DNA from: Candidatus Methylobacter oryzae
GTDB taxonomy: Bacteria; Pseudomonadota; Gammaproteobacteria; Methylococcales; Methylomonadaceae
Direction of reading: 5' to 3'
NCBI GenBank assembly: GCA_945861405.1
Contig: CAMAUL010000034.1
Location: 1-33,934, forward strand
DNA length: 33,934 bases
Shown here: positions 7,755 to 33,824 of the stretch, piece by piece
Layout: each line of letters begins with the position of its first letter
How positions within the stretch are numbered: position 1 is the stretch's first letter
Position numbers and translations under genes: made by a program
Notes under the pieces: generated by a model
What the model was told of the DNA's origin: nothing
Seen by the model: the letters and a program-made list of their open reading frames with translations, nothing else
The model's database searches: none

Positions 7755-7797
7755 GGAGTGCAAGCTTTGCTTGCGCAGCAGGCGAAGCCTGCACTCC
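7755..7797. repeat. REP element, 5' of the RAYT gene
   Basis: This is a 43-bp unit with terminal inverted repeats GGAGTGCA/TGCACTCC that enclose two adjacent hairpins: GCAAGC-TTT-GCTTGC and GCAGGC-GAA-GCCTGC. Near-identical 43-bp copies lie at 8378-8420 and 9326-9368, and a disrupted copy at 25780-25845. This two-hairpin layout is the typical BIME/REP arrangement for a RAYT. Confidence 0.85.
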
Positions 7798-7833
7798 AAC
7801 CACGCCTCGCTTAATACACATTACGAGCTGACC

Positions 7834-8367
7834 ATGTTAAAACGCCATAAACATCGCCCCGCACACCTTCTGCTAGATAACACCAGCTACTTCATAACCG
7901 GCAGTATTTATCTAAAACGCCACCTATTAAACGATCAACTTAAAGAACAGTTGACCGTTTTGTTGCAACAAATGTTTACCGAGTTTTCCTGGACACTGGA
8001 ACATTGGGTGGTGCTGAATAATCACTACCATCTGATGGCGTTTAGTCATAAAGGCGAGGATTTGCCGAAAATCATAGGTCGGGTGCATTATCAATCGGGG
8101 CGGTTAATCAGAAAAACTTATCCCTCTAAGTTACCGGCGTGGTGGAATTACTGGGATTATTGTCCGCGTGATGAAAAAGACTATTTAATTCACCTTAACT
8201 ACTTGCTAAACAATCCGGTAAAACATGGCTATACGAAAAATCTGGCTGATTATCCTTTTTCCAGTTTTCATCAGCATATAGAGAAAGTTGGCCGAGAAAC
8301 CTTGCGGCAGCAATTTAGCAATAACCCGAAATACCAATCCTTGATTCTGACCGAAGACGACTTTTAA
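7834..8367 (+). CDS. rayT: REP-associated tyrosine transposase (RAYT)
   Basis: Single-domain HUH (Y1) nuclease related to the IS200/IS605 TnpA proteins. RAYTs cut single-stranded REP hairpins and are thought to spread REP elements. The 178-residue product shows the HUH motif as HYH in NNHYHLM (H64, H66) and the candidate catalytic tyrosine Y123 in HLNYLLNNPVKHGY. An upstream ATG at 7771 would begin inside the REP element and add residues unlike the family, so ATG 7834 is preferred. The gene lies between two inverted-hairpin REP units (7755-7797 and 8378-8420), the hallmark of a RAYT and its substrate. The frame is intact, so it may be functional. Confidence 0.92.
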   Translation: MLKRHKHRPAHLLLDNTSYFITGSIYLKRHLLNDQLKEQLTVLLQQMFTEFSWTLEHWVVLNNHYHLMAFSHKGEDLPKIIGRVHYQSGRLIRKTYPSKLPAWWNYWDYCPRDEKDYLIHLNYLLNNPVKHGYTKNLADYPFSSFHQHIEKVGRETLRQQFSNNPKYQSLILTEDDF

Positions 8368-8420
8368 ATGTACGACGGGAGTGCAAGCTTTGCTTGCAAG
8401 GCAGGCGAAGCCTGCACTCC
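8355..8420. repeat. RAYT 3' end plus REP, first copy of a 66-bp direct repeat
   Basis: The segment starts within the last codons of the RAYT gene, includes its stop and ends with a 43-bp REP (8378-8420). It is repeated at 9303-9368 with only 4 mismatches in 66 bases. The two copies bracket an AT-rich block carrying one unknown gene. The gap 8421-8583 downstream holds no recognisable gene. Confidence 0.85.
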
Positions 8421-8601
8421 AGAACATGCGTCATTTGCGAATGGTACGTGATTCAGTGTACCGTGCGAGTCTTTTACATATGACTTCAAAATAGAATCGG
8501 TTTAATTAGTCCCTAGTCTACGGTGCCTGTATGAGTATAATTAAACTTTGGACGTAACATAACGTTCAATTAACTTTAACGTTATGCCATTAGAGGTGGT
8601 A

Positions 8602-9380: not shown

Positions 9381-10388
9381 CTACGCCGCATTCGCAATAA
9401 CAATAGCCCGTTTCGGAGCTGGCAAGCCTTCGCAAGTCAGTTGCGGATTATCCGCATCCAGAAAATCTTTCAGCGAATGAAACGTCATCCATTCGGTAGT
9501 GCGCTGTTCTTCAACACTGGTTACGGTGACATCGACCAAGCGGATATTTTTAAATCCGCAGCGTTTTAACCAGCTGACCAAGGTATCGCAGCTGGGCAGG
9601 AACCAGACGTTGCGCATTCTGGCGTAACGGTCTTCCGGCAGCAAAACTTCACCCAGGCCGCCGTCGATAACCAGGGTTTCCAGCACCAGTTCGCCGCCGG
9701 GTTGCAGGCAGTCCCTTAATTCCATCAGATGATCGATAGGCGAACGGCGGTGGTACAGCACGCCCATCGAAAATACCGTGTCGAATGCTTTCAAACCATA
9801 AGGCATGTCTTCTATGCCCATCGGCAGGACGTAAACCGGCGCTTCGCCATACAGTTTTCTGACCAGCTGAAACTGCATCACGTTGAGCAGCATGGGGTCG
9901 ATGCCGACCACCATCTTTGCACCGGCACCGAGCATCCGCCAGCAGTGATAACCGTTGCCGCAACCGACATCCAATACCAAGCGGTGTTCCAGCGGCGCGA
10001 TATGGTTTTTGAGCCGGTTCCATTTCCAGTCCGAACGCCATTCGGTGTCGATCTGAATGCCGAACAAGTTGTACGGGCCTTTGCGCCAGGGATGCAGGGC
10101 TTTTAATTGGCTCTGTAGGGGCGACTTTAGTCGCTCTGGGCGACTAAAGTCGCCCCTACACTGTTCTTCGGTCAAATCATCCGCACAACCAATCTGCACC
10201 GCATCGGCATCCAGCACACGTTGCACGGTAGGCAATACCGGCACGCTATCGACCAGCGCCTGCCATTGCGCCAAATCGCCATGTTTGCTTTGATCGAAGC
10301 CTTGTTCCAGCTGTTGCGGCAGAATTTTGGCCCAGGCCTCGGCCTTGGCCTCGATCAGCGCATCGTATAAGGGTTGATAGTCGATCAT
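9381..10388 (-). CDS. cmoB: tRNA U34 carboxymethyltransferase CmoB, with an in-frame palindromic insert
   Basis: Uses carboxy-S-adenosylmethionine to convert 5-hydroxyuridine to 5-carboxymethoxyuridine at the wobble position of tRNAs. The 335-residue product contains the family hallmark PWRKGPYNLFGIQIDTEWRS, a Rossmann SAM-type motif LDVGCGNGYHCWRMLGAG, FDTVFSMGVLYHRRSP and LVLETLVIDG, and ends PAPKRAIVIA. Residues 77-92 (starting CRGDFSRPERLKSP) are encoded by a 20-bp-arm palindrome and interrupt what would otherwise read LTEEQ-SQLKALHPW. The protein is about 12 residues longer than the roughly 323-residue E. coli enzyme. cmoB overlaps cmoA by 4 bp, so both steps of the pathway are coupled. 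The insert lies before the catalytic domain, so activity may survive. Confidence 0.96.
   Translation of the reverse strand: MIDYQPLYDALIEAKAEAWAKILPQQLEQGFDQSKHGDLAQWQALVDSVPVLPTVQRVLDADAVQIGCADDLTEEQCRGDFSRPERLKSPLQSQLKALHPWRKGPYNLFGIQIDTEWRSDWKWNRLKNHIAPLEHRLVLDVGCGNGYHCWRMLGAGAKMVVGIDPMLLNVMQFQLVRKLYGEAPVYVLPMGIEDMPYGLKAFDTVFSMGVLYHRRSPIDHLMELRDCLQPGGELVLETLVIDGGLGEVLLPEDRYARMRNVWFLPSCDTLVSWLKRCGFKNIRLVDVTVTSVEEQRTTEWMTFHSLKDFLDADNPQLTCEGLPAPKRAIVIANAA
10113..10160. repeat. In-frame palindromic insert within cmoB
   Basis: Arms TGTAGGGGCGACTTTAGTCG (10114-10133) and its exact complement (10141-10160) enclose a 7-nt loop. With one flanking base the unit is 48 nt, exactly 16 codons on the cmoB strand (C77-Q92). 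The flanking codons read CAG on both sides of the insert. A related arm end, GTCGCCCCTACA, recurs at 11182-11193 between cmoA and the mlaC-like gene. This is a dispersed palindromic repeat that has been kept as coding sequence. Confidence 0.9.
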
Positions 10389-11116
10389 TTCAGCGCGATG
10401 ATCGAGGCGAAGTTGAAGTATTGAAACCAGACTTCGGCGCTGCCAAAGCCGACTTGCTGCAAGCGGTTTTGATGTTGGACAAAGGTTTCAGGTATCAGCA
10501 CATTGTCCAGCGCCGTGCGTTTCTGGCTGATTTCCAGGTCGCTATAGCCTTGGGCTTTTTTAAAGGCATGATGCATTTGGGTCTGCAATTCCTGCTGCCG
10601 GTCGTCATCGAATTTGAGTTTTTCCGACAGGATCAAAATGCCGCCGGGCAACAGTCCCTGGTAAATTTTTTGCAGAAATTCACTTCGATCTCCCAACGGG
10701 ATAAACTGAAGTGTGAAATTTAAGACCACCACCGAGGCATTCTCAATCGCTACCTCGCGAATGTCGGCGCACACGACATCGACTGCAACCTGGGCTTGGT
10801 CTTTTTGTAATATTTCCTGAAAGCGCGTCACCATCGCCGGTGAGTTATCGACGGCAATGATGCGGCAGTTTTCGGCTTCAATCTGGTGGCGCATGGATAA
10901 GGTTGCCGCACCCAAAGAGCATCCCAGATCGTAGCAGACGCTATGCTCGCGGGCAAAACGCCCAGCCAACAGACCTATCGCGGAAATAATTGCGTTATAA
11001 CCGGGAACTGAGCGTTGAATCATGTCCGGGAAGACGCTAGCTACGGTTTCGTCAAATTTAAATGCGCCAACTTCGCCAATGGGGCTAGCATAAATGGAGT
11101 CTTTCGGGGAGTTCAT
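10385..11116 (-). CDS. cmoA: Carboxy-S-adenosyl-L-methionine synthase CmoA
   Basis: Makes carboxy-SAM from SAM and prephenate, the cofactor used by CmoB next door. The 243-residue product has the CmoA N-terminus (DSIYASPIGEVGAFKFDETVA), the SAM-binding stretch VCYDLGCSLGAATLSMR, AVDNSPAMV, and the C-terminal block ending WFQYFNFASIIALK. It overlaps cmoB by 4 bp (10385-10388) and lies downstream of the mlaC-like gene on the same strand, separated by 96 bp that carry a short palindrome. No clear ribosome-binding site is visible before ATG 11116. Confidence 0.96.
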   Translation of the reverse strand: MNSPKDSIYASPIGEVGAFKFDETVASVFPDMIQRSVPGYNAIISAIGLLAGRFAREHSVCYDLGCSLGAATLSMRHQIEAENCRIIAVDNSPAMVTRFQEILQKDQAQVAVDVVCADIREVAIENASVVVLNFTLQFIPLGDRSEFLQKIYQGLLPGGILILSEKLKFDDDRQQELQTQMHHAFKKAQGYSDLEISQKRTALDNVLIPETFVQHQNRLQQVGFGSAEVWFQYFNFASIIALK

Positions 11117-22634: not shown

Positions 22635-23668
22635 TGAAGCCGTCAGCCGTTGTTTTCGCCTACCACAACGTCGGCGTTACCGGCATAGAATGCCTGCTGC
22701 AAGCCGGGATCGAGATTAAACTGGTGGTCACCCATCAGGATGATCCCGAGGAAAATATCTGGTTCGGCAGTGTTGCCGAGTTGGCAAGCAGGCATCAAAT
22801 TCCTGTCATAACGCCTGACAGTCCGAATCAAGCGGACATCATCAAACACATTGCCGAGCTTAACCCGCAATGGTTTTTTTCGTTTTATTACCGGCATATG
22901 TTGAGCCCCGAATTGCTGGCTATCCCAAGCAAAGGCGCTTATAACCTGCACGGCTCGTTACTGCCCAAATACCGGGGCCGTGCGCCGGTCAATTGGGCGG
23001 TTTTGCACGGTGAATCGACTACCGGCGTTACTCTTCATCAAATGGTGGAAAAGCCCGATGCCGGCTCACTGATTGACCAGGAAGCCGTCGCTATTTTGCC
23101 CAACGATACCGCGCACGATGTTTTCTTGAAGCTGACCCCAGCCGCAAAAACGCTGTTGGATCGCTGCTTACCGTTGTTGATAGCTGGCAAGATAGAACCC
23201 CAGCCTTTGGATCTTGGACTAGGCAGTTATTTCGGTGGACGTAAGCCGGAACACGGTCGTATCGACTGGCAACAACCGGCCTGGAATATCCATAATCTGG
23301 TCAGAGCCGTGGCGCCGCCTTATCCGGGCGCATTCTTCGACAACGACCAGCGGTTTTTCCTGCTCGGCAGCCATTACAGCGGCGAAACTGCTGTGCATTC
23401 GGGCAAAGTTTGTATCTATTGGGCTGACGGTCATTTTTATGCCGACTGCGCCGACAACAAACGCTTCCGCATCGAACAGCTTAGCTATGACGGAACACCG
23501 CTGGATCAGGCATCGCTCAAGGCCATCACCGGTAATGAGCAGTTATTTCCAACCGCCAGGGATGGTGGCCGCGACTGCTCCCGGCAGTCGTCGGCACTTC
23601 CTCCATCCATGGAGGTCGGAAGTGTCGCAAGCGGTAGGGAACCGATGCGACCAACTTTAAACAACTAA
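22631..23668 (+). CDS. arnA: UDP-L-Ara4N formyltransferase (ArnA N-terminal-domain type), with repeat-encoded C-terminal tail
   Basis: Formylates UDP-L-Ara4N with 10-formyl-tetrahydrofolate. It corresponds to the N-terminal half of E. coli ArnA, here a separate protein of 345 residues. Catalytic residues of the Fmt-like fold are visible: N105 and H107 in NLHGSLLPKYRGRAPVNW, and D143 in VEKPDAGSL. The C-terminal subdomain has IDWQQPAWNIHNLVRAVAPPYPGAF. From about T308 the protein is encoded by a hairpin repeat array (23553-23645), so the last 38 residues are likely a non-native tail. The decarboxylase half follows 30 bp downstream. Gene symbols for split ArnA vary. Confidence 0.92.
   Translation: MMKPSAVVFAYHNVGVTGIECLLQAGIEIKLVVTHQDDPEENIWFGSVAELASRHQIPVITPDSPNQADIIKHIAELNPQWFFSFYYRHMLSPELLAIPSKGAYNLHGSLLPKYRGRAPVNWAVLHGESTTGVTLHQMVEKPDAGSLIDQEAVAILPNDTAHDVFLKLTPAAKTLLDRCLPLLIAGKIEPQPLDLGLGSYFGGRKPEHGRIDWQQPAWNIHNLVRAVAPPYPGAFFDNDQRFFLLGSHYSGETAVHSGKVCIYWADGHFYADCADNKRFRIEQLSYDGTPLDQASLKAITGNEQLFPTARDGGRDCSRQSSALPPSMEVGSVASGREPMRPTLNN
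23553..23645. repeat. Hairpin repeat array forming the 3' end of the formyltransferase gene
   Basis: The array starts with CCGCCAGGGATGG, shared with the elements in holC and res. It contains the hairpin CGACTG-CTCCCGG-CAGTCG (23572-23590) and a second hairpin around 23595-23625 (CACTTCC..TCCAT/ATGGA..GGAAGTG). It ends with a GGTAGGGAACC segment. The frame stays open through the whole array and stops shortly after it, so the repeat has been turned into protein tail. Confidence 0.75.
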
Positions 23669-26845: not shown

Positions 26846-28342
26846 ATGGACTATTCAATAGAAACCGCGCCATTAGAAGAACTGCAATGCGATTGCATGA
26901 TTGTCGGCGTTTATCAAGACCAACAACTCAGTCCGTCGGCAACCGCGCTTAACAACTGCACCAACGGACTGATTAACAACATCGTCAGCCGTGGCGACCT
27001 GAGCGGAAAAAACGGCGAGACCGTGTTAATCAATGCGGTTCCAGGCAGCAAGATTGAACGGATTTTGCTGGTCGGCCTGGGCGAGAACAAGCCTTTATCC
27101 GGCAAAAACTACAAAAAAGCCCTGCTGGCTGCTGTCAACAGCCTGAAAAAACCGCAAATCAAATCGGTGGTCTGCTGTCTGGCGGAATGCGATGTGACAG
27201 ACCGCGACTGGCAATGGAAATCCCGGCATATCATCGAAGTCTTTAACGATGCCGCATATCAGTTCACCCACACCAAGTCCGACAAAGAAACCGAAAGCAA
27301 GCTGCAAAAAATCGCCATTGCCGCCACGGAAACTGAACAGACTTCGGCGCATTCAGGGCTGCTGCAAGGCAAGACTGTTGCCGAAGCTATGGATTTAACC
27401 AAATACCTTGGCGACCTGCCGGGCAACATTTGTACGCCGACTTATCTTGCCGAACAGGCGATAGCTCTGAGTAAAAAATACGCCAACCTGGATGTGAAAA
27501 TTCTGGAAGAATCCGATATGGCTGCACTGGGCATGGGCGCTTTTTTGTCCGTCTCGCGCGGCAGCCGTCAACCGGCAAAATTAATCACCCTGAGTTATCA
27601 AGGCGGCGAGAAAAACGCCCAGCCTATCGTGCTGATCGGCAAAGGGCTCACTTTCGACGCGGGCGGTATTTCATTAAAACAGCCTGCGGGCATGGAAGAA
27701 ATGAAATACGACATGTGTGGCGGCGCATCTGTCCTGGGCGCCTTGCTCGCCGTAGCGCAACTGCAGCTGCCGCTGAATATTATCGGCCTGATTCCGTCAT
27801 CGGAAAACATGCCCGACGGCGACGCCAACAAACCGGGCGATATTGTGACCAGCATGTCCGGCAAAACCATTGAAATAGTGAATACCGATGCCGAGGGCCG
27901 CCTGCTGCTTTGCGACGCCTTAACCTATGCGGAACGCTACAACCCCGAGGTGGTGATAGACATCGCTACGCTGACCGGTGCGGTTGGCGTCGCTTTAGGC
28001 CGCGTAGCCATGGGCGTCCTCGGTAATGACGATGCCTTATGCAATGAACTGATTGCTGCCGGTGAGATTGCCAACGACAGCGCTTGGCGCTTGCCGCTTT
28101 GGGAAGAATATCAGGAACAACTTAAATCCAATTTCGCCGATATGAGCAATTCCGGCGGCAAAGACGCAGGCACCATTACTGCCGCCTGTTTCCTGGCGCG
28201 CTTTGCCGAAAAATTCCGCTGGGCGCATCTGGACGTTGCCGCCACCGCTTGGCGCACCGGCCCAACCAAAGGCGCAACCGGCCGCCCTGTCTCCTTATTA
28301 GTCCAATACCTGATAAGCCGGGCACATACCATCAGTGGCTGA
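26846..28342 (+). CDS. pepA: Leucyl aminopeptidase PepA (M17 family)
   Basis: Cytoplasmic hexameric metalloaminopeptidase that removes N-terminal residues from peptides; in E. coli it also binds DNA in cer recombination and carAB control. The 498-residue product has both M17 metal and active-site blocks: KGLTFDAGGISLK (K266, D271, K278), YDMCGG (D289) and the signature NTDAEGRLLL (N346-R352, with D348 and E350). DIATLTGA and the late GGKDAGTITAACFL also fit. ATG 26846 gives the usual N-terminus. The stop overlaps the holC GTG start by 8 bp. The order pepA-holC is a conserved gammaproteobacterial arrangement, usually followed by valS, which is not seen here. Confidence 0.97.
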   Translation: MDYSIETAPLEELQCDCMIVGVYQDQQLSPSATALNNCTNGLINNIVSRGDLSGKNGETVLINAVPGSKIERILLVGLGENKPLSGKNYKKALLAAVNSLKKPQIKSVVCCLAECDVTDRDWQWKSRHIIEVFNDAAYQFTHTKSDKETESKLQKIAIAATETEQTSAHSGLLQGKTVAEAMDLTKYLGDLPGNICTPTYLAEQAIALSKKYANLDVKILEESDMAALGMGAFLSVSRGSRQPAKLITLSYQGGEKNAQPIVLIGKGLTFDAGGISLKQPAGMEEMKYDMCGGASVLGALLAVAQLQLPLNIIGLIPSSENMPDGDANKPGDIVTSMSGKTIEIVNTDAEGRLLLCDALTYAERYNPEVVIDIATLTGAVGVALGRVAMGVLGNDDALCNELIAAGEIANDSAWRLPLWEEYQEQLKSNFADMSNSGGKDAGTITAACFLARFAEKFRWAHLDVAATAWRTGPTKGATGRPVSLLVQYLISRAHTISG

Positions 28343-28817
28343 AGTCAGCTTTTATATACTGCCGACCGAATCGCTGGAAGACAGGTATCTGTTTGCCTGC
28401 AAACTGATCGAGAAAGCCTACCGTAGCGGCAGTTTTTGTTATGTGCTGACCGATGATGCAGAACAAAGCCGAATCATAGATGACCTGCTCTGGACTTTCA
28501 GGCCGGGCAGTTTTATTCCGCATCAGATATACACCGGCGAGCCGCCCGATATCGCCAGGGATGGTGTGTATGCCGCAGGCTCGCCGGGAGCGAGCGCGGC
28601 GACTGAGCACGTCATCCTGATCGGTTCGCTGGCTGCGCCCGAGCACTGGCAGAAAATTCTGTTCAACCTGTCTTCGCGTTATCCTGACCTAGGGCCGCAA
28701 ACCGAGCGCATTCTTGAAATACTGGGTAACAGCGAAACAACCAAAGAAGCGGGCAGAAACCGCTATCGCCAGTATCAGCAGTCGGGCATGACAGTTACGA
28801 CGCATAAAGATTGGTAA
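28335..28817 (+). CDS. holC: DNA polymerase III chi subunit, with an in-frame palindromic insert
   Basis: Clamp-loader accessory subunit that joins the replisome to single-strand-binding protein through the psi-chi pair. The 160-residue product (GTG start at 28335, overlapping pepA) has the HolC layout: VSFYILPTESLEDRYLFACKLIEKAY, FCYVLTDDAEQSRIIDDLLWTF, FIPHQIYTG, VILIGSLAAPEHW, and a C-terminal GRNRYRQYQQSG. Residues 73-89 (starting IARDGVYAAGSPG) are encoded by a palindromic repeat and lie where HolC proteins pass directly from the FIPHQ loop to the next strand. The protein is 13 residues longer than the 147-residue E. coli protein. It is expected to tolerate the insert as a surface loop. 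Confidence 0.93.
   Translation: MAEVSFYILPTESLEDRYLFACKLIEKAYRSGSFCYVLTDDAEQSRIIDDLLWTFRPGSFIPHQIYTGEPPDIARDGVYAAGSPGASAATEHVILIGSLAAPEHWQKILFNLSSRYPDLGPQTERILEILGNSETTKEAGRNRYRQYQQSGMTVTTHKDW
28551..28601 (+). repeat. 51-nt in-frame palindromic element within holC
   Basis: Begins ATCGCCAGGGATGGTGTGTA and continues with GCCGC-GCTCG / CGAGC-GCGGC arms around a GGGA-containing loop. The unit fills 17 codons exactly. The reverse complement of 31361-31418 in res matches it nearly base for base over about 47 nt (differences at two dinucleotides and one base within the hairpin). It is the same family as the array at 23553. Confidence 0.88.
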
Positions 28818-28856
28818 GCACACCCTTTCACCATTTAGCGCAAGACAAGGAACACA

Positions 28857-31658
28857 ATGCAACTTCAGCTTGAAGACCTGCTTTATCAAAACAAAGCCAT
28901 ACAAAGCGCGGTTCAGCTTTTCAAAGGTCAAAGCAGAAATGTGTCTGAGCGTACGCTGCTATCCCAAACCAATGCCATCGACATCACCCCAAACCAGTGC
29001 TTGCTCAGCCCGGAACAGCTGCACAAAAACAAACTCGCCATCCTGCAACAAAACGCGCTTGCAAAAAATGAGGCTGCTTTAAGCGAAGAGCCACAAATCT
29101 GTATCGAAATGGAAACCGGCACCGGCAAAACACTGGTTTATATCCGCACCCTGTACGAACTCTATAAGGAATACGGTTACACCAAGTTCATCATACTCGT
29201 GCCTTCCATCGCGGTAAAAGAAGGCATCATCAACACGCTGGATAGCTTTGCCGGGCAGCTTAAAAGTCATTATCAGCATAATATCCACTGGTTTGAATAC
29301 GACAGCAAACGCCTGAATCAACTCAAACATTTTATCAACGACGATCAGCCGCAAATCATGCTGACCACCGTCCAGGCCTTCACCGCAGAAGACCGCATCC
29401 TCAATCAGCCGGGCCGGGATGACAGCATCGGCGGCTTTAGCTATCTTGAAGCCTTGGGTCAAACCCGCCCCATCATTATCATGGACGAACCGCAAGAAGG
29501 CATGGACACCGACTTGGCGCAAAAACGCCTGAATACCTTGACGCCGCTGTTTGTGTTTCGCTATTCGGCCACCCACAAGCGCATCATCAACCGGCTTTAT
29601 CGGCTGACGCCTTACGATGCTTACGCCGAAGGCCTGGTGAAAAAAATTGAAGTGCTCTCGGTTGCGGAAATCAACGACGAAGCCCTGCTGAAAATAGAAT
29701 TGCAGGAGATTCAGGCGCAAGCCGGGCAAGACCCGAAAGCCAAACTCAGCCTCTGGCACAACCTCAAAGCAGGCTTTACGCTTAAACTCAGCAAATGGCT
29801 TAAAGTCGGCGATAATTTGGCCGCAATCACCAACAACATCAGCTACCAGGACTTTACCGTCGAGCGCATCTATAAAGGCTTGCGCGACAAAAGCTGGAAA
29901 ATCCACTTCAGCAACGGCGTGGAAATAGGACAAAACCAGCGCCAAGGCGACATCAGCGGCATATTCCGCCAGCAGCTGTACTGGTTAATCAGCAGTCATT
30001 TTGATAAACAGCAAAAACTCGGCCCGCACGGCATCAAATGCCTGTCGCTTGTTTTTATCGACAAAGTCGATAATTACCTCGGCGCAGAGCCGCTGATAAA
30101 ACAACTGTTTGCCGAAGAATATCAGCGAGTCTGCCAGGAGCGCACCGGCAAGCAGCCCAGTCCTGCCCAGATTATCGCCGTGCAAGGCTACTACTTTGCG
30201 CGCACCGGCAAAGGCGAATTTACCGACAACGAAAGCGCCATGCTCAAAAACCGGGAAATCTACGATTTGATCCTCAAAGACAAACAGCAACTGTTGTCGC
30301 TGGATAACCCGGTCGAATTCATCTTCTCGCATTCCGCGCTGGGCGTCGGCTGGGATAACCCCAACATTTTCAACATCGCCACGCTTAACCAGACCTACAC
30401 CGAAATCAAAAAACGCCAGGAGATAGGTCGGGGCCTGCGTATCTGCGTCAACCAGCAAGGCCGACGCATTTACGACCCGTCCAGCGACGATGCCGACGAT
30501 GAAGTCAATGTGCTGACCCTGATCCCCAACGAAACCTACGAAACTTTCGCCTTGCAATACCAAGCGCAATTGGCGGACGAATTCGGCACAGACGGTAAAC
30601 AACCTCCTCTGCGTAAAAACAGCAAAGGCAACAAGAAGCAAAACAAACTGACCCGACACGACGCGCGGTTTAACAGCGACAGTTTCCGCAACTTCTGGAA
30701 GACCTTGGCGAGAAAAACCCAGTACACGGTTAATTTTAATGAAACTGAAATCATCAATCGCGGCATACAGGAACTGGGCAAAATAAAAATCGCCGCTTAC
30801 GAAGCCGAAATACGCCTGACCCGCATCAAACAACTGCAAGACATCCAAGGCACAGGCGAGGAAATAGGCCGGGAAATCGCCCGGCTTAAAGCCAGTTACT
30901 CGGCGGCGGACATCGTCGAACAAATCAGCGAAAACACCTCGCTCAGCTACGGCGTAGTGTTCAGGATCATCAAGGCATTGGATAATAAGGCCCAGATACT
31001 GCGCAATCCGCCGCTATTTATCCAGCAAGCCAGCAAAGAACTCAAGCGCATTGAACTGGAAGAAATGCTGCGCACCCTCAGTTACGATACAAATGGCGAC
31101 AGTTTTCCATTGGAGCTGTTCAAAGAGACCATTCATACCTACTCGCCGGTTGAGCCAACGCCCAACAAAGGCATTTACGATTTTGCCATTTGCGATGCCG
31201 ACTCCCAGCCGGAACATGAGTTTGCCCATAATGCCGACAACGACCCGAAAGTCGTCTGCCTGCTGAAACTGCCCGAGTTCTACAAAATACCCACGCCCAT
31301 AGGCAGCTATCAACCTGACTTTGGGCTGGTGGTAAAACAGAGCAGCCTTAAAAACAGCGATGGCGATGGCCGCGCTCGTTCCCTACGAGCAAGCGGCATA
31401 CACACCATCCCTGGCGATAAAGAACTGTATTTTGTCATCGAAACCAAAAGCACCAATGACATCAACGACGATAAAGCGCTCACCGAACACGAGCGCAGCA
31501 AAATCCAATGCGCGGTTAAACATTTTCAGGCCTTAGGCATCCGCGCCGAGATAGGCGGCGAACTACGGTACGAAGTCAAAGAAACGCCGGGCAATTATCA
31601 ACAAACCAATGCCGCCTTTCGAGCGCCGGTTAAAGATTACGACGATATAAAGATATAA
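28857..31658 (+). CDS. res: Type III restriction endonuclease subunit Res, with an in-frame palindromic insert
   Basis: Helicase-nuclease subunit of a type III restriction system, acting with the Mod subunit. The 933-residue product has the SF2 core: Walker A METGTGKT (85-92), motif II DEPQ (210-213), GVGWDNPNIFNIATL (from 496) and QEIGRGLRI (521-529). The C-terminal PD-(D/E)xK nuclease is represented by YQPDFGLVV (D821) and VIETKS (E862, K864). A 17-residue insert (within 836-854, GRARSLRASGIHTIPG) encoded by a palindromic repeat lies between D821 and E862, stretching the spacing from about 24 to 41 residues. ACAAGGA precedes ATG 28857. The reading frame is otherwise intact. Whether the nuclease still cuts is uncertain. 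Confidence 0.94.
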   Translation: MQLQLEDLLYQNKAIQSAVQLFKGQSRNVSERTLLSQTNAIDITPNQCLLSPEQLHKNKLAILQQNALAKNEAALSEEPQICIEMETGTGKTLVYIRTLYELYKEYGYTKFIILVPSIAVKEGIINTLDSFAGQLKSHYQHNIHWFEYDSKRLNQLKHFINDDQPQIMLTTVQAFTAEDRILNQPGRDDSIGGFSYLEALGQTRPIIIMDEPQEGMDTDLAQKRLNTLTPLFVFRYSATHKRIINRLYRLTPYDAYAEGLVKKIEVLSVAEINDEALLKIELQEIQAQAGQDPKAKLSLWHNLKAGFTLKLSKWLKVGDNLAAITNNISYQDFTVERIYKGLRDKSWKIHFSNGVEIGQNQRQGDISGIFRQQLYWLISSHFDKQQKLGPHGIKCLSLVFIDKVDNYLGAEPLIKQLFAEEYQRVCQERTGKQPSPAQIIAVQGYYFARTGKGEFTDNESAMLKNREIYDLILKDKQQLLSLDNPVEFIFSHSALGVGWDNPNIFNIATLNQTYTEIKKRQEIGRGLRICVNQQGRRIYDPSSDDADDEVNVLTLIPNETYETFALQYQAQLADEFGTDGKQPPLRKNSKGNKKQNKLTRHDARFNSDSFRNFWKTLARKTQYTVNFNETEIINRGIQELGKIKIAAYEAEIRLTRIKQLQDIQGTGEEIGREIARLKASYSAADIVEQISENTSLSYGVVFRIIKALDNKAQILRNPPLFIQQASKELKRIELEEMLRTLSYDTNGDSFPLELFKETIHTYSPVEPTPNKGIYDFAICDADSQPEHEFAHNADNDPKVVCLLKLPEFYKIPTPIGSYQPDFGLVVKQSSLKNSDGDGRARSLRASGIHTIPGDKELYFVIETKSTNDINDDKALTEHERSKIQCAVKHFQALGIRAEIGGELRYEVKETPGNYQQTNAAFRAPVKDYDDIKI
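31361..31418 (-). repeat. 51-nt in-frame palindromic element within res, flanked by a 7-bp direct repeat
   Basis: Read on the minus strand it opens ATCGCCAGGGATGGTGTGTA like the holC copy, followed by GCCGC..GCTCG and CGAGCGCGGC arms. TGGCGAT occurs at 31361-31367 and 31412-31418, 51 nt apart. Removing one copy plus the element restores S-D-G-D-K-E-L-Y-F in frame. The repeated heptamer may be a target duplication or part of the element ends. Confidence 0.88.
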
Positions 31659-31705
31659 TTACTAAAAAATGAAACCTGATTGGCAAAGAACCCTCAGCCT
31701 CGCAC

Positions 31706-31802
31706 CGTCATTCCGGCAGGGATTGCCGGAATCCAGACTACAGGGATGTATTTGGACTTGCCATCCATGGCACTGGATACCCGCATCCCGGCGGGTATGA
31801 CG
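31706..31802. repeat. REP-like element between res and mod
   Basis: Ends are CGTCA and TGACG. Two stems lie inside: ATTCCGGCA-GGGAT-TGCCGGAAT (31710-31732) and ATACCCGC-ATCCCG-GCGGGTAT (31777-31798). The GTCATTCCGGC...GGAATCCAG pattern is a widespread bacterial repeat style. It separates res from mod within a 195-bp gap and could weaken co-transcription of the two. Confidence 0.75.
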
Positions 31803-31853
31803 CGCCTATTACATTTAAGCGTATTTACAAAAACACCAACACCCTAAATAAAA

Positions 31854-33824
31854 ATGAACGAAAACACCCTGCAAAGCAAAATGCCCAACACCCCCGACGG
31901 TCAGCAAGAACGCTTGCAGGAATTAAAGCGCCTGTTCCCCGACCTGTTTGACGGCGAAGGCCAACTTAAACTCGACGACCTTAAACAACTGGTGGGCGAA
32001 GCCGTCCACAACAAGGAACGCTACGATTTCACCTGGTCGGGCAAGCGCAACGCCAAACAGGCCGCCTACAGCCCTACTACGGCGGCGCTGACCTATGGCG
32101 AAACCCGCTCGGTCAATCCCGATAAGGCGGACGGCAACCTGATCATCGAAGGCGAAAACCTGGAAAGCCTTAAGTGCCTGTTGGCCGCTTACCGTGGCGC
32201 GGTCAAGTGCATCTACATCGACCCGCCTTACAACACCGGCAAGGATTTTGTTTATTCCGACAACTACAACGAGGAACGCAAAGCCTATTGGGAACAAACC
32301 GGCGGCGTGGAAGCCGGGATAAAAGTCGATACCAACCCCGACAGCGACGGCCGCTACCACTCCAACTGGCTGAACATGATCTACCCGCGTTTGTTGCTGG
32401 CGCGGCAGCTGTTGAAAGACGACGGCGTTATCTTTGTTTCGATAGACGACAATGAGGTGCATAACCTGCGCAAGGTGATGGATGAGGTGTTTGGGGAGGA
32501 GAATTTTCTCGCCTGCGTGTGCTGGCAGAAAAAGTACGCGCCTTCCAATGATACGGAAGATTTTTCACCCATGCACGACTTCATAATAGTGTATTGCAAG
32601 GAAAGAAAATACACCGATAGTGGCAAAGTTATCGGTATTCTGCGGCGTTTAGACCGTACCGAGGAACAAAACAAACTGTATAAAAACCCGGATAATGATC
32701 CTCGTGGCCTATGGCGAACAGATAACTATCTTTGTAACAAAACCGCTGATCAGCGACCGAATCTTTATTATCCGATTATTCACCCAAAAACTGGCGAAGA
32801 AATTTGGCCAAACCGCAATGCTGTATGGCGATACAGCAAGGAAAGGCACGAACTGAATGCCAGGGAAAACCGCATCTGGTGGGGAGCAACCAAAGACAAC
32901 GCCGTTCCAGCCTATAAACGTTTTCTCAATGACGTGTCTGGCGTGATTACCACTACGTGGTGGACACATCAAGACGCCGGACATAACGATGAAGCAAAAA
33001 AAGAATCCCGAAATTTGTTGTGCGACATAGGCGTCGATTTCGATACACCAAAGCCCGTCCGGCTAATCAAACGCATCCTGAAACTGGCTACCTCGCCAAG
33101 TGAAAAACCCGATGCAGTTTTGGGCGTTAACGACGTGACGGCAACTTATCAGGTTGAAGGACAAGTTGAAACTCTGTTAAATGAAAAGGAAATTGTTCTG
33201 GATTTCTTTGCTGGCTCCGGCACCACCGCCCAAGCTGTCCTCGAACTTAACAAGGAAGATAACGGCAACCGTCAATTCATCCTTGTTCAGCTGCCCGAAC
33301 AAATCAAAGCCGATTCAGCCGGTTTTAAGAAAATATCCGACATCACCATCGAGCGCGTTAAACGGGTGGTTAACGGCTATGGCGACAACCCCGAACCTTT
33401 GGACGCAGGTTTCAGCGTCTACCAATTGACAAAATCGCATTTTCCGCGCGTCGATTTCAAGCCCGACCCGGAAGTTTCGGAAGCGGAAAACCTGCAACGG
33501 CTGGAAGCTTACATCAGCGAAAAAGAAGCGCAGCTGATCGGCCTGTTTGAGCCGCACGAGATACGCGATGAAGTGTTGCTGAAAAACGGCTTCCGCCTGA
33601 ATTACCGGTTACAGGCGCAACCCCAGTTCACCGCCAACAGCGTCAGCCTTGCCGACGACGGCGAAAAATCGGCATTGATCTGTCTGGACAATACCCTGTC
33701 GAATAAAACCGTCGATCAGTTACTGGCAAACCCGCAAGCCTTTATCTGTCTTGAACGCGCCCTGAACACCGATGCCAAATGGAACCTGCGCCAGCATCTT
33801 AAGCATCTGTTTGTTGCTTTTTAA
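31854..33824 (+). CDS. mod: Type III DNA-methyltransferase subunit Mod (beta-class, N6-adenine)
   Basis: Recognition and methylation subunit of the type III system; it also directs Res. The 656-residue product has beta-class motif order: catalytic DPPYNTG (from D123) before the SAM motif DFFAGSGTT (450-458). It opens with a helical N-terminal part (QERLQELKRLFPDLF, LKLDDLKQLVG) and has FVSIDDNEVHNL after the catalytic motif. The region between the motifs (about residues 215-440, bases 32500-33180) carries the target-recognition domain and is visibly less GC-rich than the ends, as expected for exchangeable recognition domains. No clear ribosome-binding site precedes ATG 31854. The res-then-mod order is the reverse of the common mod-res order. 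Confidence 0.94.
   Translation: MNENTLQSKMPNTPDGQQERLQELKRLFPDLFDGEGQLKLDDLKQLVGEAVHNKERYDFTWSGKRNAKQAAYSPTTAALTYGETRSVNPDKADGNLIIEGENLESLKCLLAAYRGAVKCIYIDPPYNTGKDFVYSDNYNEERKAYWEQTGGVEAGIKVDTNPDSDGRYHSNWLNMIYPRLLLARQLLKDDGVIFVSIDDNEVHNLRKVMDEVFGEENFLACVCWQKKYAPSNDTEDFSPMHDFIIVYCKERKYTDSGKVIGILRRLDRTEEQNKLYKNPDNDPRGLWRTDNYLCNKTADQRPNLYYPIIHPKTGEEIWPNRNAVWRYSKERHELNARENRIWWGATKDNAVPAYKRFLNDVSGVITTTWWTHQDAGHNDEAKKESRNLLCDIGVDFDTPKPVRLIKRILKLATSPSEKPDAVLGVNDVTATYQVEGQVETLLNEKEIVLDFFAGSGTTAQAVLELNKEDNGNRQFILVQLPEQIKADSAGFKKISDITIERVKRVVNGYGDNPEPLDAGFSVYQLTKSHFPRVDFKPDPEVSEAENLQRLEAYISEKEAQLIGLFEPHEIRDEVLLKNGFRLNYRLQAQPQFTANSVSLADDGEKSALICLDNTLSNKTVDQLLANPQAFICLERALNTDAKWNLRQHLKHLFVAF

Follow-up and report, generated by a model that had tools for sequence, protein, structure and literature searches.

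The DNA considered here is a stretch of 33,934 nt from Candidatus Methylobacter oryzae (contig CAMAUL010000034.1; hereafter the window), which is contig C34 of a 3.58 Mb, 154-contig Methylobacter-like genome. Two of its genes, holC and res, each contain a copy of a 51-nt palindromic unit reading ATCGCCAGGGATGGTGTGTATGCCGC...GCGGCG, which is very probably a mobile in-frame element and probably belongs to a non-autonomous family that spreads in genomes of the Methylobacter group mainly within protein-coding genes. Being a protein-coding palindrome, it resembles in kind the Rickettsia palindromic elements (RPEs) or the intragenic repetitive extragenic palindromes (REPs), and the family is new. 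A sequence-only reading of the window had already proposed a single mobile in-frame repeat family inserted in both orientations, a view that the further copies and empty sites reported below bear out; the family, which that reading placed outside the standard feature types, is not of a new kind, since RPEs and intragenic REPs have been described.

Two copies and a large family

The two copies (A in holC and B in res; Table 1) differ at 6 of 51 bases (positions 27, 28, 34, 35, 40 and 51), which confirms the near-identity that had first drawn attention to them. Each amounts to 51 nt or 17 codons and keeps the frame, giving HolC the residues DIARDGVYAAGSPGASAATEH and Res the residues DGRARSLRASGIHTIPGDK, read on opposite strands as had been claimed; the left end originally given for copy B, 31361, was 7 bases too far out. 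The match is not due to chance, because an exact 20-mer of the element occurs 23 times in the genome and its reversed control not once.

The profile search of the genome and its relatives that the earlier reading had recommended was run with a covariance model built from 25 copies and returned many further copies. At E<=1 the window's genome gave 92 matches, a figure that takes in partial matches as well as sister families; its overall number is about 80. At E<=0.01, matches were present in 30 of 61 genomes (own, genus, family and order), among them all 23 genomes of the genus, the window's own included, with 3 to 88 each and at least 5 in 21 of them; G004 and G016 stand at the low end with 3 apiece, whereas G000, G008, G010 and G021 are high in copy number. 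A sample of 201 genomes of the order yielded 56 with matches at E<=1e-4, distributed over 21 of 48 genera, and those outside the genus mostly had few matches per genome, up to 28. For detailed analysis, 40 stretches of the window's genome, 60 from 18 relatives of the genus and the window itself were assembled into 101 loci (1.63 Mb), which hold 197 copies at E<1e-4. Counted among same-strand neighbours only, these copies fall into 147 arrays, of which 105 are single, 36 double, 4 triple and 2 quadruple, and grouping by flank similarity gave 79 distinct insertion sites. Head-to-tail joints in tandem arrays, for example at 850-851 of locus L131, give a perfect palindrome, GGCGATCGCC.

Insertion and target site

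The left and right flanks of each copy served as separate queries against the other loci and L039-L042, giving 284 comparisons (pairs, non-independent) in which the length between flanks was 0 nt in 49 cases, 51 in 118, 102 in 30, 153 in 3 and 204 in 5. Multiples of 51 thus account for 205 comparisons, the 49 exact zeros among them; the remaining 79 had other lengths, and 265 of the 284 were multiples of 3. A relative allowed comparison at 51 of the 79 sites, and at 26 of those 51 an empty allele was present, its flanks separated by -3 to 12 nt. Target duplication was not found in the 49 zero-length comparisons, since the flanks abut exactly in all of them. A weak target motif, WT^NNNG, is preferred: the left flank ends in T at 76 of 79 sites, with A or T before that T at 73, and position +4 of the right flank is G at 66. 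When 97 single copies were compared with the 45-57 nt lying between matching flanks, 80 differed at no more than 8 positions and the remaining 17 all proved to be element units, in some cases a few bases out of register, so that no decayed orthologue of roughly full length escaped notice.

For the two copies in the window, HolC is without the insert in L039, L165, L040, L041, L250 and L251 but carries one in L042; Res is shorter by 51 nt in L042 and by 54 nt in L040 and L041, the site being filled in L039. The same residues in HolC and Res orthologues of distant taxa had been named at the outset, along with an absence of further copies, as a finding that would speak against a mobile element; among the relatives at hand, orthologues without them occur for both proteins, but the HolC of another genus (L248, L249) does have units. 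That a conserved protein motif of HolC and Res explains the shared residues is scarcely conceivable: units do stand at the same residue in the HolC of that genus, but HolC reads one strand of the unit and Res the other, and close orthologues are without these residues.

The empty sites also bear on a classical miniature inverted-repeat transposable element of a DDE transposase, which would likewise be short, structured and high in copy number. Such an origin is very improbable, as the empty sites are free of target duplication and the terminal inverted repeat measures, by eye, only about 4 nt (CGCC/GGCG). Nor was an autonomous long form seen at 20 loci with head-like 12-mers, where the 80 nt after the head held other repeats or other sequence without the unit's tail; this was not a systematic search for a long element.

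Genic location and reading phase

Out of 197 copies, 171 lie wholly within called genes, 22 between genes and 4 partly within, at a coding density of 0.80; the window's genome alone has 57 of 65 copies within genes. By site, 67 of 79 are genic, and 60 of these 67 fall in three of the six phases, namely sense IARDGVYAASQSGTGAA, antisense RRASSRLACGIHTIPGD and antisense AAPVPDWLAAYTPSLA. The genic copies comprise 104 in sense phase 0, 1 in sense phase 1 and 3 in sense phase 2, together with 28, 4 and 31 in antisense phases 0, 1 and 2, respectively. Of the 43 element-bearing proteins listed for the genome, 30 were compared with curated libraries; 28 matched a family and two did not. The hosts include ValS, PurH, MinC, RecO, RapA, TtcA, EPSP synthase (aroA), UvrD, a pterin-binding enzyme and pyruvate dehydrogenase E1, as well as HolC and Res.

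Part of this bias comes from the target itself. At the 78 sites that could be classed clearly, the observed distribution was 35/1/3 in sense and 13/3/12 in antisense (phases 0/1/2), with 11 intergenic, whereas a null drawn from positions of the same loci weighted by the target motif, with genes below 300 nt taken as intergenic, expects 14-17/4-6/9-10 in sense, 12-14/8-11/7-8 in antisense and 17-18 intergenic (six-phase test, P 2.7e-5 to 2.9e-8 over six null variants). The target motif accounts for part of the phase bias and, since the skew exceeds the target-weighted null, protein-level selection is the likely remainder.

The consensus is open in all six frames, as are 128 of 192 copies, against 2.4% of in-frame coding 51-mers and 6.9% of composition shuffles. 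Openness in all frames was rejected as a special property, because 20% of random 51-mers with matched G+C and pairing are equally open; it needs no special cause beyond G+C and fold, and the non-randomness lies in the choice of frames. The earlier idea that multi-frame openness favours survival inside genes is supported in one respect, that frame filters the copies found, and less clear as regards the openness itself.

Fold, strand and conservation in place

The element comprises a head hairpin, CGCCA-NGGA-TGGYG, and a second, bulged hairpin at its tail, GCCGC-aa-NNNNNN-cggga-NNNNNN-GCGGC. Among 25 distinct copies, standard pairing occupies 96.8% of pair cells and 8 pairs, all in the tail, show changes on both sides; neither figure, nor the covariation score, was reached by any of 500 shuffles, and the pairing is destroyed when stem partners are slid. 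Single copies fold well as DNA (z -2.8 to -4.2, four strands tested). Stem mismatches on the element's + strand are G.T rather than A.C in 130 versus 30 cases for sense copies, 68 versus 4 for antisense and 29 versus 8 for intergenic ones, an excess due mostly to the head pair G4.T15. Because G.T exceeds A.C in both orientations, it seems to be the folding of the element's own + strand that matters, and not that of the host mRNA.

This strand argument weighs on the proposal that the unit is a regulatory RNA, for example a binding site of CsrA (RsmA), with GGA in two hairpin loops 28 nt apart and a head, CANGGATG, in which we presume a CsrA motif. Both GGA loops are kept in 97 of 106 sense copies, a csrA gene is present in the genome, silent positions are conserved, and within the head loop position 8 varies most (G 157, A 20, T 12 and C 3 of 192). 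However, antisense copies put no such RNA in the host mRNA and yet keep both loops in 55 of 57 cases with the same G.T bias; intergenic sites are not enriched (11 against the 17-18 expected), and a scan of window positions 28300-31700 against Rfam, at E up to 10, gave no match at either copy and one below-cut-off match elsewhere. A role of this sort is most unlikely.

Conservation after insertion was assessed in 49 pairs of single copies occupying the same site in different loci, in which 5.8% of element positions changed against 13.0% in the flanks. At third codon positions, the counts were 23/510 in the element and 671/2500 in the flanks for sense copies, 11/187 and 262/950 for antisense phase 0, and 1/51 and 76/250 for antisense phase 2, the change being about five to six times slower in the element in both orientations. 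First and second positions gave 48/1020 against 286/5000 for sense copies and 2/102 against 30/500 for antisense phase 2. A coding constraint would leave third positions free, and the low rate there therefore argues for a constraint that seems to act on the nucleic acid itself. Change is not low throughout the unit, positions 27 and 51 differing in 9 and 13 of 53 pairs.

Concerted evolution, by gene conversion among copies instead of selection, is a possible though less favoured explanation of this in-place conservation only, and is compatible with a mobile in-frame element. Replacement is seen at one site at least (L210/L215, 15/51 differences), array length changes by whole units, and the orthologue was the closest or co-closest copy in only 65 of 102 tests. 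Orthologous copies nevertheless differ on average by 2.8/51 (51 pairs) against 7.2/51 between sites of one genome (644 pairs), two values that full homogenisation would equalise; partial conversion may have contributed.

Proposed mobilisation of the element

Taken together, these data show an element that occupies sites empty in relatives, prefers WT^NNNG, leaves no target duplication and adds 51 nt or multiples thereof as head-to-tail arrays. Since 51 nt make 17 codons and the relevant frames of the unit are open, an insertion does no more than add a peptide to the host protein, and protein-level selection would then leave mostly three of the six phases, as the phase test indicates. The element's own + strand folds into two hairpins, each with GGA in its loop, and keeps this fold in either gene orientation; the fold would be recognised by a trans-acting enzyme, most likely on single-stranded DNA as with HUH (Y1) transposases. 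These enzymes combine the absence of target duplication with unlike ends, a short target and a folded strand. A HUH-type mobiliser is accordingly the likeliest candidate, an unproven one that we put forward tentatively.

An ordinary REP family that tolerates genes and is moved by a REP-associated tyrosine transposase (RAYT) would share the REP-sized bulged hairpin, the lack of target duplication and the asymmetric ends, and Y1_Tnp genes do occur in 23 of 23 genus genomes. This reading is nonetheless unlikely. The consensus is without a GTAG or CGTC tag beside the tail hairpin, and no copy was seen within 1.5 kb, or up to the contig end where that comes first, at any of 23 Y1_Tnp loci examined of 141 matches (4 of the genome with 1.5 kb on each side and 19 of relatives with about 2 kb); five of these loci (L258, L260, L261, L265 and L267) are cut by contig ends within that distance. 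The nearest copies lie 1.6 kb (L255) and 4.0 kb (L263) away, and on the loci covered a RAYT is not favoured as mobiliser. In 8 of the 19 relatives' loci, as at the window's own RAYT, both sides share other repeats, and published REPs are mostly intergenic according to PMC3733652, against 171 of 197 genic copies here. The RAYT-like Y1_Tnp gene of the window (about 7834-8367) has a different repeat on either side (GTGCAAGCTTTGCTTGC...GCAGGCGAAGCCTGCACTCC; 7755-8421).

Searches for vectors gave no exact 25-mer match in viral contigs, no megablast match in plasmids and no blastn match in phages. A replication-strand bias was considered in G019, a near-complete relative with dnaA at C1:2066708, and rejected: by hand count, 10 of 15 copies on that contig (E<=5.6e-8) fit one orientation per side of dnaA, which is not convincing. 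It is conceivable, although we hold it doubtful, that a mechanism of a new kind moves this coding-sequence-based element, given that no RAYT linkage was seen, no target duplication occurs and the step is fixed at 51 nt. Copies would then be kept by selection on the own-strand fold whatever the host strand, with valS and holC holding them for long and gaining or losing them in 17-codon units.

Old or re-used sites and other considerations

The interpretation as a mobile in-frame element has to be weighed against several points, the first being that the valS and holC sites are common to several genera, so that some insertions are old or some sites re-used. The ValS site after GYF carries two units in the window's genome, one in L165, L178, L181, L042 and L250, three in L251, and none in L039, L040, L041, L247, L248 and L249, with L250 and L251 representing two other genera of the family. 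In a third other genus, HolC has two units (L248) or one (L249) at the site of copy A, while six other relatives have none. A mobility constraint alone should, moreover, leave copies free to change once inserted, whereas orthologous copies stay conserved in place. For antisense phase 0, first and second positions changed in 45/374 cases, above the flanks (120/1900), an excess owed mainly to a single site where copies were replaced (L185/L210/L215).

On the structural side, the number of further pair types is not above the control, since 85 of 500 shuffles reach it, and in the 25 copies the head is nearly invariant and without double change; a paired head variant, CTCCA...TGGAG, occurs in copies outside that set. 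No enzyme has been linked to the element, the Y1_Tnp loci described above included. Furthermore, genes were called with a simple purpose-made codon-usage caller, the relatives' loci were chosen around the best-scoring copies, and three sites had members in different phase classes, one class being used for each.

A set of 11 loci from 10 genomes of other genera, chosen around high-scoring copies and with a few low-scoring gene calls, holds 26 copies; all 26 fall within called genes, 23 of them in sense phase 0 and the other 3 in antisense phase 0. In L187, at about 9929-10516, a gene resembling a leucyl-tRNA synthetase, an identity that we assume from a motif, has a unit at a place matching the ValS insertion site.

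Relation to known palindromic repeats

The best-known protein-coding palindromes are those of Rickettsia, a genus difficult to manipulate, and RPEs were reportedly described by Ogata and co-workers. Like the present element, RPEs are not known to have a transposase, and we know of no account of how protein-coding palindromes move. The present element agrees with RPEs in kind, being inserted in frame in unrelated genes, absent from orthologues of relatives and folded as a palindrome. According to PMC10969869, RPEs are palindromic repeats that lie in frame in many unrelated genes and add a peptide, with other copies outside genes, all of which applies here; nearly half of the first RPEs were genic in that account, compared with 67 of 79 sites here. 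In contrast to RPEs, the host is a group of free-living gammaproteobacterial methanotrophs, and the unit measures 51 nt against about 150 bp (a distinction made by description). It also differs in occurring in both orientations, mainly in three phases, and in head-to-tail arrays with 17-codon steps.

Like the GTAG/CGTC REPs, including the intragenic ones and RPE-4/RPE-6, as presented in PMC3733652, the element is a small hairpin repeat sometimes found within DNA repair and tRNA synthetase genes and in some cases at a closely corresponding site of two species. Unlike them, it has no tag, two hairpins, a mainly genic location and no adjacent transposase gene found. With the REP doublets forming hairpins (REPINs) of RAYT transposases, compare PMC3116915, it shares the character of non-autonomous hairpin DNA spread within bacterial genomes; here, 36 of the 147 arrays are head-to-tail doubles, counted among same-strand neighbours only. 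The palindromic amphipathic repeat coding elements (PARCEL) are likewise palindromic coding repeats in tandem, but they correspond, according to PMC2996958, to a 25-residue motif in open reading frames without assigned function, many of them membrane-targeted, and not to an insert in housekeeping genes. No description of the family was found in the open-licence literature, where the sole string match was a 13-base string in a human placenta paper.

The family is unusual for its genic home, its 17-codon step and its conservation in place, and the slow change at silent positions within the insert is unexpected and calls for a cause. The family is also rich, occurs in free-living methanotrophs of many species and offers clean empty sites, competing phases and a target that can be measured. 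Two questions can thereby be put to the test, namely by what agent such elements are moved and how core enzymes absorb repeated 17-residue inserts.

Features and neighbourhood of the two copies in the window

Coordinates of the two copies, their host genes and related features are given in Table 1.

Table 1. Element copies, hairpins and host genes in the window
Feature	Position	Strand	Description
Element copy A	28551..28601	+	51 nt, own sense frame (IARDGVYAAGSPGASAA), within holC; 78.3 bits, E 1.9e-16 (covariance model)
Element copy B	31368..31418	-	51 nt, antisense (GRARSLRASGIHTIPGD), within res; 72.6 bits, E 5.4e-15 (covariance model)
Copy A head hairpin	28553..28566	+	CGCCA-GGGA-TGGTG
Copy A tail hairpin	28572..28600	+	GCCGC-ag-GCTCGC-cggga-GCGAGC-GCGGC; 8/11 tail pairs with both-side changes
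holC, with copy A in frame	28335..28817	+	DNA polymerase III chi subunit; Pfam DNA_pol3_chi PF04364, E 9.7e-33; matches 1em8_A, 3sxu_A
res, with copy B in frame	28857..31658	+	Type III restriction enzyme subunit; PF04851 + PF19778
Weaker match, sister family	23567..23616	-	CTCCATGGATGGAG head, GGAA replacing GTGTAT before tail hairpin; E 4.1e-5; part of an inverted composite at about 23552-23651

The structure model of HolC (mean predicted local distance difference test score 56) was too poor for placing the insert. The nearest named relatives of res are metagenome-assembled genomes of Methylobacter and Methylococcaceae. Together with a putative mod gene, res forms a Type III restriction system at 28857-33824, downstream of holC, a position taken in L248 and L249 by valS, which directly follows holC. 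One internal stop is present in res of L039 (5001-7802) and of L041 (2078-4819), where the restriction gene may be decaying. A repeat-like stretch at about 31705-31803 starts with GTCATTCCGGCAGGGATTGCCGGAATCCAG and ends with GCGGGTATGACG around a core CCATCCATGG, with similar flanks at other loci, and a palindrome of another kind lies at about 10115-10160 (GGGGCGACTTTAGTCGC...GCGACTAAAGTCGCCCC).

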